NCBI GenBank assembly: GCA_022821965.1 | Contig: JAJECN010000040.1 | Span: 1 to 64,000 of the forward strand | Source of the DNA: Candidatus Poribacteria bacterium | Lineage (GTDB): Bacteria; Poribacteria; WGA-4E; WGA-3G | Reading direction: 5' to 3' | DNA length: 64,000 nucleotides | In this document: positions 21,436-42,221 of the stretch, in pieces | Layout of the letters: each line of letters opens with the position of its first letter | How positions within the stretch are numbered: the first letter of the stretch is position 1 | Translations under genes and position numbers: made by a program | Notes under the pieces: model-generated | Seen by the model: the letters and a program-made list of their open reading frames with translations, nothing else | Told to the model about the DNA's origin: nothing | Databases searched by the model: none

Positions 21436-22464
21436 TTATTTCTGATTCCCACCACGTTTAAGAGCACTCCACGTCGTGACCAATTTCTGCTCTGGTTCGA
21501 CCGACAATACAGCCCCTTCCCGCGACCATGCAATGACGAAGATACTTCCGTCAACCTCTACTATTGCCTCGGTCTCATCAGTTGCGAAGTTATACAGGTA
21601 GATAGATCCCCATCGAGAATAGACGATATAGTCACCTTCAGGCGACCAATCCCCCCAATAGCCAGTGGCTTTGTCGACATCAAACAAGGGTTCAATTGCT
21701 TTGGTTTCAACGTCAATCGTGTAAAACGTGTCAAACTCTCTATTCCATCTGAGAAAGAGGATGCTTCTACCATCAGGAGACCATACAGGATAAAAATCTT
21801 TATGGAGTTCGGTTAAAACCTCTATCTCTTTTGTTTCAACGTCTAAAAGATACATGTGTTCCAACCAGCCGGGTCTCGAAAGTGAAAAGACGAGTCGTCT
21901 TCCACTCGGTGACCAAGATATTCCATAGAATGAGTAAGGCCATCCTAAGTGCGGCACTTGCGTCATTACTTCCATTTCTCCGGTATCGACATCCAGCACC
22001 CAAATCTGGTTTTCTTGGGGTAACTGGTCTAAGGTATAACCGTTAAAGGCGAGTTTTTTGCCATCAGGAGAAACGGAAAGAAACCGATATGTACCAGAAA
22101 TCGGCGTAATTCGTTTTTTATTCTTTGGATTTTCTGGATCAACGGAATAGATATCAGCGTGTCCTTTACCGCGTTGGATGAAATAGAGCACATCTCCGTT
22201 GGGTCCCCATGATGGGTACATCCCTTTGTGGTTCAAGGAGACAGCCTTTAAATCCTTAGTGCCACTGATTTCGGTGATGTATAGATTCCAATCAAATCGA
22301 CCCAGATTTTCATCAAATCCATTGACTGCGTAAGCGAAATATCCGGTTGGTTCAGCTTCGCCGAGTGAGGTGAATGAAACAAGGGTTAGAATAAGCACTC
22401 CCAAGAAAGCGAACATAGCAGCCTTAGAGGTATAAAGCCGTCCAATGCTATATTTACGTATCAT
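21436..22464 (-). CDS. exported TolB-like beta-propeller protein with W..LK tail
   Basis: A 342-aa protein with an N-terminal signal/anchor (AAMFAFLGVLILTLVSF). At least five PD40/WD40-like blades follow, with the repeats YPSWGPNGDVLYF, FLSVSPDGKKLAF, GISWSPSGRRLVF, YPVWSPDGRSILF and WGDWSPEGDYIVY. Such propellers bind proteins or glycans in the periplasm. The last residues (VEPEQKLVTTWSALKRGG) share a short motif with two nearby exported proteins. AAGGAG precedes the ATG. The specific role is unknown. Confidence 0.75.
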   Translation of the reverse strand: MIRKYSIGRLYTSKAAMFAFLGVLILTLVSFTSLGEAEPTGYFAYAVNGFDENLGRFDWNLYITEISGTKDLKAVSLNHKGMYPSWGPNGDVLYFIQRGKGHADIYSVDPENPKNKKRITPISGTYRFLSVSPDGKKLAFNGYTLDQLPQENQIWVLDVDTGEMEVMTQVPHLGWPYSFYGISWSPSGRRLVFSLSRPGWLEHMYLLDVETKEIEVLTELHKDFYPVWSPDGRSILFLRWNREFDTFYTIDVETKAIEPLFDVDKATGYWGDWSPEGDYIVYSRWGSIYLYNFATDETEAIVEVDGSIFVIAWSREGAVLSVEPEQKLVTTWSALKRGGNQK

Positions 22465-22514
22465 TACTACTCCTTATAAAAAAATGGATTGAAAATAAAA
22501 AAATAAATTTAAAA

Positions 22515-23618
22515 TTATTGGGCGGGTTCAAGTCGTTTATAATGGAGCAGTGCGTTCTCATAAAGGCGGCGACTTAAGCCCAGTTTTTCAAGTTCAACAA
22601 CCACATCATAACTGTACAGTGCCGAGCTTTCTCTTCCCTCCTTGTCAGCACGACGGGCATTCCGAATACTGTTTATTACCTCCAACGCCCCTTTTTCAAA
22701 ACTTCCAATCTTCTTTCGGAGTTCCGAAGACAATCCACTCTGAATGTCCTTGTTTACCTTGTAAGTACGAATCGCATCGGTATACGCAACATAAGCCTCA
22801 TAGTAGCGCTTTTCGCCTTCCAGTTTTTCCGCAGCTGAGGTATCCACTGGTTCTCCAAGGGCGGCGATAACTTCCTTTGCCTCTCCAATCAACTCAAGGC
22901 TTTTCTGGGAAAGTCCTGCCTCAAGCGCTGCTCGGAAGTCGTCTACGATCTCTTTATAGGTTGCCCTTGCTGCAGCCGAATCACCCGACTTTTCATAGGC
23001 GAGTGCTTGGTTAAATTTAGCTTCAGCGAGCACAAACCTCCGAATCTCAGGCGAGAGTTGTGGCGTGGGCGGGAATGCCTTCGCCTGATAGGCAGCAATA
23101 GCTTTTTCGTAGTCACCTTCCTGTTCGTAGGTATTACCTATCGCCTTCTGGGCATATAGACTATATATCTGATTTTCGGGTTGATGCTCTGCAATTATCT
23201 GCTGAAATTGCGTGCGTGCCTCCGCGTAGTTCCCCTGATAATAGAGTGTACTGGCGTACTGATAACGCGCTTTGTCGGAAAAAACCGTATTCGGGTGTTT
23301 CTCAAAGACTTCTCGAAGTTGCGTCTGTGCTGTTTTAAGTGATTCTTCGCTTTCCCCTAATTTTTCTGCATCAAACAGGCTCTCCGCCGCGGTACCGTAT
23401 GCTTCCGTGGCTTCACGCAGTGCGATGGCTGCTTCGGCGCGACGGGTCTCTCGATTCTGATGATACGCCGCATAACCCGCAACAGCAACAAGCACTACGC
23501 CTACTACAATGATAATAGTTCGTAGATTCTCCTTCAGGTACGCGTAGACTTTCAGGATCCCTTCAACAAACTTATCTTCTTGGATTTCTTCTTTCGTGAG
23601 TCGTTGGTCTCGTGCCAT
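22515..23618 (-). CDS. membrane-anchored TPR protein (YfgM/BamD-like organisation)
   Basis: A 367-aa protein with a cytoplasmic N-terminus of about 32 residues, one transmembrane helix (TIIIVVGVVLVAVAGYAAYH), then TPR units. These include SDKARYQYASTLYYQGNYAEA, YAQKAIGNTYEQEGDYEKA and LAEAKFNQALAYEKSGDSAAA (each shown in part). The layout, a single N-terminal helix plus periplasmic TPRs, resembles YfgM, an ancillary subunit of the Sec translocon. No neighbouring envelope-assembly gene confirms this. GAGGAA lies 6 bases before the ATG. Confidence 0.7.
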   Translation of the reverse strand: MARDQRLTKEEIQEDKFVEGILKVYAYLKENLRTIIIVVGVVLVAVAGYAAYHQNRETRRAEAAIALREATEAYGTAAESLFDAEKLGESEESLKTAQTQLREVFEKHPNTVFSDKARYQYASTLYYQGNYAEARTQFQQIIAEHQPENQIYSLYAQKAIGNTYEQEGDYEKAIAAYQAKAFPPTPQLSPEIRRFVLAEAKFNQALAYEKSGDSAAARATYKEIVDDFRAALEAGLSQKSLELIGEAKEVIAALGEPVDTSAAEKLEGEKRYYEAYVAYTDAIRTYKVNKDIQSGLSSELRKKIGSFEKGALEVINSIRNARRADKEGRESSALYSYDVVVELEKLGLSRRLYENALLHYKRLEPAQ

Positions 23619-23652
23619 GAATTTCCTCAGTTTTAGGCAATTTAATATTTTA

Positions 23653-23724
23653 AGCGGGTGACGGGAATTGAACCCGTGACCCTCAGCTTGGGAAGCTGAC
23701 GCTCTACCGCTGAGCTACACCCGC
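23653..23724 (-). tRNA. tRNA-Gly (CCC)
   Basis: 72 nt: acceptor GCGGGTG / CACCCGC, anticodon stem TCAGC / GCTGA with loop TTCCCAA, T-arm ACGGGTTCAATTCCCGT. The anticodon CCC reads GGG. CCA is not encoded. It is preceded by a consensus promoter. Confidence 0.93.
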
Positions 23725-23733
23725 ATTAATGAT

Positions 23734-23762
23734 ATTATATCATACATTTTTGGCATTGTCAA
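23734..23762 (-). promoter_or_regulatory. perfect sigma-70 consensus promoter of tRNA-Gly
   Basis: On the minus strand TTGACA (23762-23757), exactly 17 bases, TATAAT (23739-23734), both hexamers identical to the consensus. Transcription would start about 5 bases before the tRNA. It shows that the housekeeping sigma factor here reads the standard consensus. Confidence 0.85.
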
Positions 23763-23781
23763 TGTTACCAAAGTTAAAATG

Positions 23782-23843
23782 AAAAGCGGGCGTTGGCATG
23801 ATATACAATCATAATTTGCAAGTTTCGCCAGATGCCCGCTTTC
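23782..23843. repeat. inverted repeat after the tRNA-Gly promoter
   Basis: AAAGCGGGC and GCCCGCTTT (about 23783-23791 and 23834-23842) pair over a 42-base loop. It lies between two minus-strand genes (upstream of tRNA-Gly, downstream of the peroxiredoxin stop) and could act as a terminator for the latter. No T-run is obvious. Confidence 0.4.
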
Positions 23844-23897
23844 CCGTTTCATTGCGGCACATAGACCGTGCCTACAATACCGGTTACGCCGGAGTAT

Positions 23898-24365
23898 TTA
23901 TTGTAATTTGTCCAACTCGCCCAGAACTTGCTCAGCTGTCAGTGTGTTATCCGGCGGAGCCTCTTCAACGTGTTTAAAGGCAATCTTCCCCGCCTTGTCA
24001 ATAATAAACACACCGCGCGTGGTAATACCAACCTCTTCAAGTGCCATGCCGAATTGTTTAGAAACAGCAAGGTTCATATCCGTGAGGAGCGGAAAATCGA
24101 CACCCCCGAGATCCTCACTCCATGCCTTGTGAGCAAACGCCGAATCGCGGTTGATAGCGATGACATCAGCACCTTTCGCCTGAATCGCGGCGAGGTTTTC
24201 ATTAAAATCCGGCACCTGTTCAGAACAAACCGGGGAGAAATCGAGCGGATAAAAGAGAACAACTAAATTTTTACCTGCATAATCACTCAACGAAACTTCA
24301 GTATCTTCTTGATTGACTGCACCCGTTAACGTGAAATCCGGGGCAGCACTTCCTACATCTGACAT
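23898..24365 (-). CDS. 1-Cys peroxiredoxin (AhpE/Bcp-like)
   Basis: A 155-aa thioredoxin-fold peroxiredoxin. Peroxidatic Cys47 lies in FYPLDFSPVCSEQ, in the PxxxS/TxxC pattern. No other cysteine is present, so it must be resolved by an external thiol. It reduces H2O2 or alkyl hydroperoxides in the cytoplasm. AGGAG precedes the ATG. It is a single gene, upstream of the tRNA-Gly in genome order. Confidence 0.92.
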   Translation of the reverse strand: MSDVGSAAPDFTLTGAVNQEDTEVSLSDYAGKNLVVLFYPLDFSPVCSEQVPDFNENLAAIQAKGADVIAINRDSAFAHKAWSEDLGGVDFPLLTDMNLAVSKQFGMALEEVGITTRGVFIIDKAGKIAFKHVEEAPPDNTLTAEQVLGELDKLQ

Positions 24366-24430
24366 TAAAATTCTCCTATGTGCGCTTAAAAAGCGCGTCT
24401 AAAACAAACAGGACTTACGCAGCCCTTTTT

Positions 24431-24457
24431 GCAGGCGAGGTTTCAAACCTCGCTTGC
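24431..24457. repeat. G+C-rich hairpin of a dispersed family
   Basis: GCAGGCGAGGTTT / AAACCTCGCTTGC with a one-base centre and one mismatch. Similar GCGAGGTT..AACCTCGC palindromes occur at 6371-6392 and 25198-25225. It could terminate the LamG-like gene, but the T-rich flank is on its other side. Confidence 0.55.
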
Positions 24458-24482
24458 GGGGGGTTATGTAAATTGTATAAGA

Positions 24483-25163
24483 TTACTTTCTCTTCAAGGC
24501 TGCCCACGACACCGCAAGCTTTCCCTGAGGCTTGATTTCCGTGAGGGGGACTGTGTCGCCCTTAACACTTACGTCATCAAAACTGGCTTGTGTATCCCAT
24601 GTCCAGACTCCGACTTTCCCAACGGAATATGTATTATCAAAAAAGACACCCTGTTCTATGCCATTAATTGCAACTGCGAAACGGCTGCCTTCAACGACAA
24701 CGCGGAGCGTGTACCACTCGTTGCGGATAATCGTAAGCCCGATAGGTTCAATGTCGTGTTCAATCTCATCGCGCGCCTCAAACCCATCTTTAAAGGCAGT
24801 GCTGCGCCGGTGTCGCCACAATTCAGACTTGTTTTCCTTCGGACAGATGAGGTACACATAGTACTCAAATTCATTTTGTGCCCGGAAAACGATACCACCC
24901 CAGTGTCCGTCATCAACACGGACCTTTGCTTCCAGCGTGTGATCTGTCCATTCCATCCCATCAACCAACGCTTTCTGTGCTTCACCCCAGCGCGTTGTCT
25001 GTTTATAGACCCCCTCTTCTACTTCCCAAGTACCATTCGCCGGGATCCAATCGGTAGCATTGTTATCAAACGTCCAAAGTTGCTCCTCAGCAGTCGCAGA
25101 GGAAGCAAAATAAATACTGATGCACATCACAAAGAGTGTGAATCCGCTTTGCATAACGCCCAT
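24483..25163 (-). CDS. exported concanavalin-fold (DUF1080/LamG-like) protein with W..LK tail
   Basis: About 226 aa. Signal peptide (SGFTLFVMCISIYFASSATA), then a jelly-roll domain resembling 3-keto-disaccharide hydrolase/DUF1080 proteins: LWTFDNNATDWIPANGTW at the start, and GGIVFRAQNEFEYYVYLI in the middle. DDVSVKG is the typical last strand. The C-terminus IKPQGKLAVSWAALKRK shares a tail motif with its neighbours. The role may be binding or modification of glycans; catalytic residues cannot be assigned. ATG 25163 or GTG 25166 may start it; neither has a strong ribosome site. Confidence 0.75.
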   Translation of the reverse strand: MGVMQSGFTLFVMCISIYFASSATAEEQLWTFDNNATDWIPANGTWEVEEGVYKQTTRWGEAQKALVDGMEWTDHTLEAKVRVDDGHWGGIVFRAQNEFEYYVYLICPKENKSELWRHRRSTAFKDGFEARDEIEHDIEPIGLTIIRNEWYTLRVVVEGSRFAVAINGIEQGVFFDNTYSVGKVGVWTWDTQASFDDVSVKGDTVPLTEIKPQGKLAVSWAALKRK

Positions 25164-25197
25164 CACGGTTGGTAGGTTTCGCTAAACGCTATCAAAA

Positions 25198-25225
25198 TAG
25201 GGCGGAGGCACTGGACCTCGCCCTA
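25198..25225 (-). terminator. hairpin after the LamG gene
   Basis: TAGGGCGGAGG / CCTCGCCCTA surrounds a short loop, directly after the stop of the minus-strand gene at 25237. On that strand TTTTGATAG follows, a weak T-run. It belongs to the same palindrome family as 24431-24457. Confidence 0.5.
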
Positions 25226-25236
25226 TACTTAAGCAC

Positions 25237-26004
25237 TTACTTCGCTTTAAGTTTTGCCCATTTGGTGGCAAGTTTGCCCTTGGGATCAACGGAAAGCGTT
25301 CCGATTTCCATTTCGTTAACTTCGTCTTCCGTCAAGGCAACGGAGTAAATACGGGATTCCTCAATATGGGCGTTGAGGTCTCCGGGACCGCCGAGTCCGT
25401 TTGTATGTCGTTTCCCCCAGATCGCTTCGGCATCGCCTGTGGGCCAGGTTTTGATGTCGCCCTTTTCATAACTACCAAGGCTCTCCCCGTTGCGGTAGCC
25501 AGTAATCTTGTAAGTGCCACCCTTATCTTCATAAGTGAAGGCTAAGTACACCATTTCGCCTTCTTTCTTTTCATTGTGCGCTTTCGGGAAATCTTCAGTG
25601 CGATGGAACCAACTGCTTCCAGACATCCATTGATTCGGTTGCCGTTCGGCATAGACGATGGCGTTAAATTGGTCCTCTGTGGCTTTATCTAACGTGAGTG
25701 CCGAACCCTTTGTCGCAGCGAGGTTGTCCAAGGCAACCCATGTCATCAAAGTTTTCTCTTCGATATCGGGTCCGGTGTATTCAAGTGCGTGTGCCCATTT
25801 CCCGGTCTCAACAATCAGTTGACCGTCTTTGAGTTCGGCACCGTGGAGATCTATATCATCCCAATTGCCGATCTCATCTTTTTCATTATCAAACAACCAC
25901 CACCCAAGCAGCTTATCTGCTTGTGCGTCTTGTGCGAATACTGCTGGTGCCGATAGACCCAACATCAGCAGGACAGCACAGATATAATAGACTTTCATTC
26001 TCAT
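25237..26004 (-). CDS. exported LamG-like protein with W..LK tail
   Basis: About 255 aa. Signal peptide MRMKVYYICAVLLMLGLSAP..FAQ, then a LamG/concanavalin-type domain (LLGWWLFDNEKDEIGNWDD at residues about 35-52; HIEESRIYSVALTEDEVNEM near the end, the typical last helix/strand of LamG_3). It ends LSVDPKGKLATKWAKLKAK, the clearest copy of the shared tail. AGGAG (26018-26014) is 9 bases before ATG 26004; the upstream TTG is too close. Probably a surface or periplasmic carbohydrate-binding protein. Confidence 0.8.
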   Translation of the reverse strand: MRMKVYYICAVLLMLGLSAPAVFAQDAQADKLLGWWLFDNEKDEIGNWDDIDLHGAELKDGQLIVETGKWAHALEYTGPDIEEKTLMTWVALDNLAATKGSALTLDKATEDQFNAIVYAERQPNQWMSGSSWFHRTEDFPKAHNEKKEGEMVYLAFTYEDKGGTYKITGYRNGESLGSYEKGDIKTWPTGDAEAIWGKRHTNGLGGPGDLNAHIEESRIYSVALTEDEVNEMEIGTLSVDPKGKLATKWAKLKAK

Positions 26005-26510
26005 TACCAATCGCTCCTTTTTAGATTCAGGTTGTGGTTTGGCGCGGGCAGATTATCTCGCGGACAGAAAGCAGGTTTCACTCCTACCCGCAGGGGTAAA
26101 TAAATTAAAGTATATTATAACGTACATTTCGTGCCAAAGTCAAATGTTTTTCTAAGGTATTTATGGTGAATTATAGAATTAAGTTGACGTTTCAATGGAA
26201 GCAAAAACCTCCACCGCCGCTGACGAGGATTGTATCCTCGCCTCTTTAAAATGTCTAAGTAATTGCAAAATCTACCATAGTTGTCAGTTACCGAGCCTTT
26301 TGATTCAAGAATCTGTCTTCTTTTCCACCCCATCTATACGGTGTATTGCTCCTACAGCAAAGAAATTCCGGGCAGGCGATTAACTATAGCACAACTGAAT
26401 GCCTCCGAAGGAAATCATTCCTGCTTGCAAATTATCCTCGTATGTGTTACCATTAATGCCATCTACACATAATAACAATACCTAAAGAAACAGAGGCAAA
26501 GGAACAAAAG
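26005..26510. other. 506-base intergenic region, divergent genes
   Basis: It separates the divergent LamG gene and the 901-aa surface-protein gene. Visible contents: a hairpin CGAGGAT / ATCCTCG (26224-26240), an A+T-rich tract (26095-26190), a CTCCTACAG repeat end (about 26350), and a candidate plus-strand promoter at 26425-26453. Short open frames here (62-72 codons) do not look coding. Confidence 0.5.
26425..26453 (+). promoter_or_regulatory. candidate promoter of the 901-aa protein gene
   Basis: TTGCAA (26425-26430), 17 bases, TACCAT (26448-26453), about 58 bases before the ATG. The ribosome site AAAGGAA is at 26498-26504. Confidence 0.35.
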
Positions 26511-41200: not shown

Positions 41201-42136
41201 CTAAAAATTGGCAATCAACGAGAATCGGTGTGTTAACCCCAAAACACCGAACGGCACGAGCGCGTAATCGATTTGGAAGCGAAGGAACTTCAACCCAAAA
41301 CCGCCTGTGAGACCAGAAATCGCCCCTAAATCGTTACCACCGATTTTGTATTTATAACCGGTGCGGAGTTCCAAAACATTGCCGATCGTGTAGCCTGTCC
41401 CCGCTGCGATTGCGATGTCGTTGTCAGACGGTCGGATAATATCCAGCGTTAGGATGAATGGCTGGCTCGAAGTTCTGTAAGCCGCACCGAGTCTAAAGGT
41501 AAAGGGTAAACCAAACGCCTCCTCTATAAACTTCACTCGCGGTCCCACATGCTGTGCATTGAACCCCAATGCAAGAAGAGGCATCTCTGAAAAGGTGTAT
41601 ATCCCACCGAGATCGAAAGCAATACCGGTTCCGCTTTCGTCAGCGATCTGCTCACGCAGGAACTTCGCGTTCGTACCGAAAGCGAATGACTTCCCGAAAC
41701 CGCGGGCATAGGACAGCACCACCGCCAGATCGTAAGGACGGAAAATAGTCGTTTCGTTCCCCTCTCGATCGCGTCCCTGCAACTCACCGAAGGACAAGAA
41801 ACTCGCGCTTGCACCGAGCGTCCCAGCACTCCCGAACGGGTGTGCGAATCCGACGAACTCGTGATTGATCCCCGCGAACCATTCGTTATGCATGAGGGCG
41901 AGTTGTGGGTGTTGGAGCCTTGCAAGCCCTGCGGGGTTCCAATACGAGGCGTAAAGGTCATCGGTCGCAGCGACGTGAGATTCTCCCATCCCCATCGCTT
42001 TCGCACCTACCCCGATTTTGAGGAAGGTCATGGCGCGAGTACCAGCGTTTTCGTGGATGTCCGTGCTATCTGCTGCAGCGGATATACAGCCAAGAACGGA
42101 TATTATGATAAGAATATACGTAAAGCCTTGGTTCAT
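41201..42136 (-). CDS. PorV/PorQ-family outer-membrane barrel protein
   Basis: A 311-aa protein with signal peptide (FTYILIIISVLGCISAAA). It then shows FLKIGVGAKAMGMGESHVA and DDLYASYWNPAGLARL, the hallmark N-terminal block of PorV/PorQ (UPF0164) barrels, followed by alternating strands to the terminal F (FSLIANF). PorV acts in type IX secretion as the shuttle that takes proteins with C-terminal tags. No PorT/SprA genes are in the window, so a link to the tailed proteins at 21.4-26.0 kb is only a hypothesis. ATG 42136 has AAGGTG 9 bases upstream and is preferred over GTG 42148. Confidence 0.8.
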   Translation of the reverse strand: MNQGFTYILIIISVLGCISAAADSTDIHENAGTRAMTFLKIGVGAKAMGMGESHVAATDDLYASYWNPAGLARLQHPQLALMHNEWFAGINHEFVGFAHPFGSAGTLGASASFLSFGELQGRDREGNETTIFRPYDLAVVLSYARGFGKSFAFGTNAKFLREQIADESGTGIAFDLGGIYTFSEMPLLALGFNAQHVGPRVKFIEEAFGLPFTFRLGAAYRTSSQPFILTLDIIRPSDNDIAIAAGTGYTIGNVLELRTGYKYKIGGNDLGAISGLTGGFGLKFLRFQIDYALVPFGVLGLTHRFSLIANF

Positions 42137-42221
42137 AAAGTGTTTCACCTTATATTTCGGTGTAAATAGTGTCGTTTTTCTTCAAAAAATGAGAAACTCT
42201 AAGACATTCTTCAAGTCATTG

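Follow-up and report, generated by a model that had tools for sequence, protein, structure and literature searches.

The closest described counterparts of the motif reported here are the C-terminal signals (CTDs) of type IX secretion (T9SS), namely CTD type A (TIGR04183) and the short CTDs of Prevotella intermedia. In Bacteroidota, binding of CTDs by PorV is known or has been modelled (PMC11969387; PMC11285876). Short CTDs suffice in P. intermedia (PMC11969387), and in P. gingivalis a short end segment can be enough, as GFP was secreted and attached in dependence on the last 22 residues of HBP35 (PMC11285876; PMC11969387). Por CTDs have also been described in Poribacteria, yet the Por structural genes were not found there (Kamke et al., 2014; PMC3909097).

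The window analysed here is a stretch of 64,000 nucleotides on a 299 kb contig (C10) of a Candidatus Poribacteria MAG (G000; 5.69 Mb, 95% complete, 3.9% contamination). According to the original prediction, three adjacent exported proteins in this window end in near-identical tails, and these tails, VEPEQKLVTTWSALKRGGNQK, IKPQGKLAVSWAALKRK and VDPKGKLATKWAKLKAK, were indeed found (Table 1), the propeller tail being three residues longer than first given. When the DUF1080-like protein was aligned with the LamG protein by BLASTP, and the propeller with the DUF1080-like protein, the tail was the only significant alignment in both pairs. The three proteins had also been described as three different folds. 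This stands for the propeller, which is clearly different, but less so for the other two, since PF06439 (DUF1080-like) and PF13385 (LamG-like) are both what we take to be concanavalin-like β-sandwiches; genome-wide, the folds are diverse.

Table 1. Tail proteins of the window and T9SS-like or tail-plus-CTD genes. Plain positions refer to the window.
Feature	Position	Strand	Evidence or remark
Exported PD40 β-propeller protein with tail	21436..22464	(-)	Pfam PD40 3.8e-18; signal-peptide-like N-terminus
Tail core VEPEQKLVTTWSALK	21457..21501	(-)	C-terminus of the exported PD40 propeller; followed by RGGNQK and stop
Exported 3-keto-disaccharide hydrolase (DUF1080)-like protein with tail	24483..25166	(-)	Pfam PF06439 3.5e-9
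Tail IKPQGKLAVSWAALKRK of exported DUF1080-like protein	24486..24536	(-)	Profile match 7.1e-7; BLASTP
Exported LamG (Laminin_G_3) protein with tail	25237..26010	(-)	Pfam PF13385 4.3e-9
Tail VDPKGKLATKWAKLKAK of exported LamG protein	25240..25290	(-)	Profile match 8.0e-8; BLASTP; model
PorV/PorQ-family outer-membrane protein, candidate reader of C-terminal signals	41201..42148	(-)	NF033709 206.7 bits, cut-off 90
PorU-like gene, about 2,076 aa	L420:4675-10905		G000 contig C42
PorV-family gene	L420:10997-12073		G000 contig C42; 92 bp downstream of the PorU-like gene
SprA-like gene, about 2,241 aa	L302:9914-16639		About 30 kb from the PorU-like gene, same contig
Tail-plus-CTD protein	L101:2205-4061		
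Tail-plus-CTD protein	L210:2863-3795		
Tail-plus-CTD protein	L274:198-1655		

The tail shares several features with T9SS CTDs: it is C-terminal, sits on Sec-exported proteins of many folds, has no transmembrane segment, keeps a basic residue near its end and occurs in genomes with T9SS-like parts. Yet with 15–17 residues it is much shorter than CTDs (about 40–90 residues), lacks both the β-sandwich and the GxY motif, and is separate from the canonical CTDs found in the same genomes. A short C-terminal motif with a basic end on many exported proteins of different folds is also typical of the PEP-CTERM/exosortase and LPXTG/sortase systems. Unlike PEP-CTERM, the tail motif lies 1–10 residues from the stop with no transmembrane segment behind it, and the exosortase is absent from G000 and from 82 of 85 poribacterial genomes. 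The tail consensus likewise has neither an LPXTG-like motif nor the hydrophobic segment of sortase substrates. Dockerins are a common C-terminal element on diverse exported, often carbohydrate-binding proteins, but the tail is far shorter and has no Ca-binding repeat, and a cohesin-like partner was not identified. Finally, encapsulation peptides of bacterial microcompartments combine a short terminal motif and a flexible linker with diverse cargo; the tail carriers differ in being exported, and cytosolic encapsulation is therefore excluded.

The tail follows the short consensus V-x-P-x-G-K-L-A-T-T-W-G-x-L-K (roughly 15 residues) or, in full, [LF]-[AP]-V-[ED]-[PA]-x-[GD]-K-L-[AT]-T-T-W-[GA]-x-[LI]-K, then 1–6 mostly polar or basic residues. 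The conserved block is sharp: information climbs abruptly 7 residues ahead of the first Lys and persists as far as the second, after which 1–10 variable residues precede the stop. The pattern used to extract tails required the first Lys and the Trp and restricted the hydrophobic positions but left the second Lys, the Val and the two Thr free; in the extracted tails the second Lys was present in 100% and the Val in 95% (remainder Ile). At the DNA level, third positions hold 0.04–0.12 bits in most tail codons, whereas first and second positions hold 1–2 bits; downstream of the stop, the DNA holds about 0.03 bits. As neither third positions nor downstream DNA are conserved, it is the peptide that is under selection, and a repeat at the DNA level is excluded. 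Across 34 aligned orthologs of the propeller (about 50–96% identity) V, K, T, T, W, and K are invariant, and both the linker ahead of the tail and the residues behind it drift. The tail was kept in all 48 propeller orthologs whose ends were read. Two adjoining exported PD40-type propellers in G000 (C10:133524-135970) have variant tails with extra residues, SVSPTMKTQTTLWGTLKK and AVSPIAQTQTTLWSRLKK, and similar variants are seen on other PD40 propellers.

The whole genome was searched in six frames, irrespective of position, with a 20-residue profile built from tails alone. This gave at least 150 matches, and the motif is thus present on other exported proteins of the genome rather than absent from them. 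Among the 150 matches listed, 149 end 1–10 residues ahead of an in-frame stop; in the sole exception, L101, a T9SS CTD comes after the tail-like segment. In the fetched stretches, which were drawn around profile matches and so represent a profile-seeded sample, 814 genes were called; 121 of these have the C-terminal motif vs. 0.8 expected from shuffled C-termini, and a wider pattern that allows for PD40-propeller insertions found 151 vs. 0.18 expected. A stricter form of the motif occurred 132 times at C-termini and 0 times internally. Tails at C-termini by chance are excluded. On contig C10, taken whole and with no tail selection, 55 genes were flagged as exported and 5 match the wide tail pattern, or 6 with the DUF1080 protein of the window (Ile for Val). 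We arrive at about 150–200 tail carriers per genome (150 counted, 200 estimated), mostly single-domain and Sec-exported. One LamG-tail gene (L031:6127-6900; G000 C10:70127-70900) is broken by an in-frame TAA and several further tail genes in the phylum contain one in-frame stop, so some members of the family have decayed or been misassembled.

Signal-peptide-like N-termini, called by a hydrophobicity rule and not by a trained predictor, were found in 126 of the 127 fetched carriers, the exception being a truncated gene. The wide tail pattern also matched 17 of 560 genes that had no signal-peptide flag. Visual inspection showed that in 14 of them a signal peptide had been missed because of a wrong start or the strict rule; the other 3 are fragments. 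The tail is therefore not equally common on cytoplasmic proteins. No credible lipobox was seen at the signal-peptide cleavage site of the 127 carriers (3 loose matches, all in the hydrophobic core). As many exported proteins have no tail, it marks a subset of them.

As to fold INDEPENDENCE, the carriers fell into 22 clusters without detectable similarity once their tails had been removed, the largest comprising 93 LamG-type proteins. Pfam domains include LamG, DUF1080, CBM4_9, CBM9, F5/8-C, Kelch, PD40, HmuY and others. Matches to the NCBIfam "TafC fimbrial" model in 54 carriers were rejected, as they fall within the LamG body and score far below the cut-off. The preponderance of LamG (73 of 126 carriers by Pfam) and the frequent tandem arrangement of tail genes could suggest that the tails are shared because genes were duplicated locally, because the DNA is repetitive or because the tail belongs to the protein fold. 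We find this hardly credible given the 22 unrelated body clusters and the lack of conservation at synonymous sites and in the 3' flank, which also speak against one local duplication behind the three tails of the window. Besides, exported FG-GAP-type relatives without the tail exist, and the tail is placed outside the folds in AlphaFold models. In the propeller model (pLDDT 80.9 overall) it lies beyond the propeller fold with pLDDT 31–38, and in the LamG model (80.5 overall) beyond the LamG fold with pLDDT about 46–49.

The natural reading of these models is that the tail may be a flexible linear motif that becomes structured on binding. With its invariant Trp flanked by two Lys and its basic end, the tail might also be imagined as an interfacial amphipathic peptide that binds the membrane directly. 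This seems very unlikely to us: the helical hydrophobic moment at 100 degrees equals that of shuffled sequences, and the two conserved Thr and the invariant pattern suggest specific recognition over general amphipathy.

The tail was found in all 85 genomes of the phylum, with 18 to at least 105 matches each. The most distant poribacterial families have the same motif, and some of their proteins stop right at the second Lys. When 84,980 species, each represented by one genome, were scanned with the exact DNA pattern, at least 80 loci came up, and 78 of the 80 listed belong to Poribacteria. The other two, L202 and L215, are genuine tails in a deltaproteobacterial and an archaeal (Thermoprotei) MAG. 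Since both sit on short MAG contigs and neither genome has a second match, they are probably misbinned poribacterial DNA. In the open-access literature, searches on the motif strings, poribacterial LamG and poribacterial secretion signals found the tail unreported.

The same genomes contain T9SS-like parts. PorV/PorQ-family proteins are above the cut-off in 85 of 85 genomes, with 17 matches in G000 and 8–24 per genome across the phylum. PorU-like and SprA-like matches are strong but below the cut-off in nearly all. The PorU-like proteins are found phylum-wide and have about 2,000 aa, and in the SprA-like protein (about 2,200 aa) three SprA segments are matched in order, below the cut-off. The SprA-like profile had no match in the PDB, where, as in family libraries, divergent homologs may be missed. 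The presence of divergent SprA-like, PorU-like and PorV-family genes across the phylum bears on the question left open by Kamke et al. (PMC3909097). The PorV/PorQ family appears expanded in Poribacteria; none of the well-known control genomes had a match above the cut-off. G000 also has 58 matches to type A T9SS CTDs, mostly on long proteins other than the tail carriers.

A link between the tail and type IX secretion had been offered as a guess, based on the PorV/PorQ-type protein of the window, and it meets with mixed evidence. T9SS-like parts and CTDs are present, but none of 126 carriers matched the CTD model (TIGR04183) at E 0.01, and in contrast to T9SS CTDs the tail of the two modelled carriers forms no folded β-sheet or β-sandwich, being detached and of low confidence. 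PorV-family genes show no enrichment around tail genes: of about 15, 3 lie no more than about 3 kb away, and the chance estimate is also about 3. As both the tail and the PorV family occur in every genome of the phylum, their co-occurrence is uninformative. The neighbours of tail genes, named by eye (phyH, TPR, Gfo/Idh and FG-GAP families), include no recurrent transporter and no conserved neighbour. A tail gene beside a SprA-like gene was considered as a general link and rejected, since it was seen in three genomes of one genus only and not in other families.

In three proteins a tail-like segment stands immediately ahead of a type A CTD (L101, VEPTGKQSTIWGKVK; L210, VEPQDKQIVILGAIK; L274, VEPQNKRFTTLGDIK), and in two of the three the Trp is lost. 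The PD40 relatives of L274 have the tail alone at their end, and exported FG-GAP relatives of L101 have neither tail nor CTD. Tail and CTD are therefore separable modules. From these sequences the tail seems less constrained where a CTD follows; that the two serve overlapping purposes is only a hint from three cases. The same proteins, together with the PD40 relatives, could be taken to mean that the tail is a linker remnant from a lost T9SS CTD. We regard this as highly improbable, even more so than direct membrane binding, because a remnant would decay, yet the tail is held at the protein level in orthologs and in 85 of 85 genomes, and it is better conserved without a CTD than with one.

The main rival to a sorting signal is docking: much like a dockerin, the tail would hold proteins of the periplasm or cell surface on a shared scaffold, matrix or multiprotein complex once they have been exported in the ordinary way. 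C-terminal position, export and fold independence also fit this, and binding domains (LamG, CBM, F5/8-C) are common among the carriers. Should cleavage take place just ahead of the CTD, the three tail-plus-CTD proteins would even mature with the tail as their end. Against docking, a scaffold was not found, and the degenerate tails of these proteins, with the Trp lost in two of three, are unexpected for a motif working internally. Overall we consider docking unlikely, though far less so than the other alternatives above.

In the explanation we favour, the tail serves as a short sorting signal at the C-terminus, has no transmembrane segment and acts after Sec export; judged from sequence, this is probably correct. 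Good support for the broader reading given originally, a signal for sorting, anchoring or processing, comes from the strict C-terminal position, the restriction to exported carriers, the independence of fold, the selection at the protein level and the retention throughout the phylum. Sec export and cleavage of the signal peptide would come first; a dedicated periplasmic or outer-membrane receptor would then bind the tail, recognising it as a linear motif, and would move, anchor or process the tail-bearing protein. Tentatively, the receptor may belong to the divergent T9SS of the phylum, with the tail as a minimal alternative to the 70–90-residue CTD and, for example, a PorV-family protein as its reader. 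The CTD proteins in the same genomes count against a sorting signal of this kind, since a second T9SS signal is then not required, and so do the absence of a conserved gene neighbour and the lack of similarity to T9SS CTD models. We lean, with some reserve, towards the tail being a new class of sorting signal, roughly 15 residues long, transmembrane-less, restricted to Poribacteria and universal among them. It would send over 150 exported proteins in each cell to a single destination, parallel to the CTD route, either via a dedicated receptor or via a T9SS that has diversified and uses several PorV-type adaptors.

The tail thus looks like an unrecognised address label that is read outside the cytoplasm. 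If this is true, a large and unexplained part of the exported proteome in a major uncultured phylum of sponge symbionts would have a shared destination, and a simple sequence rule could be used to annotate such exported proteins in Poribacteria. Much of the tail-bearing proteome consists of carbohydrate-binding or lectin-like proteins, which could meet the sponge host.
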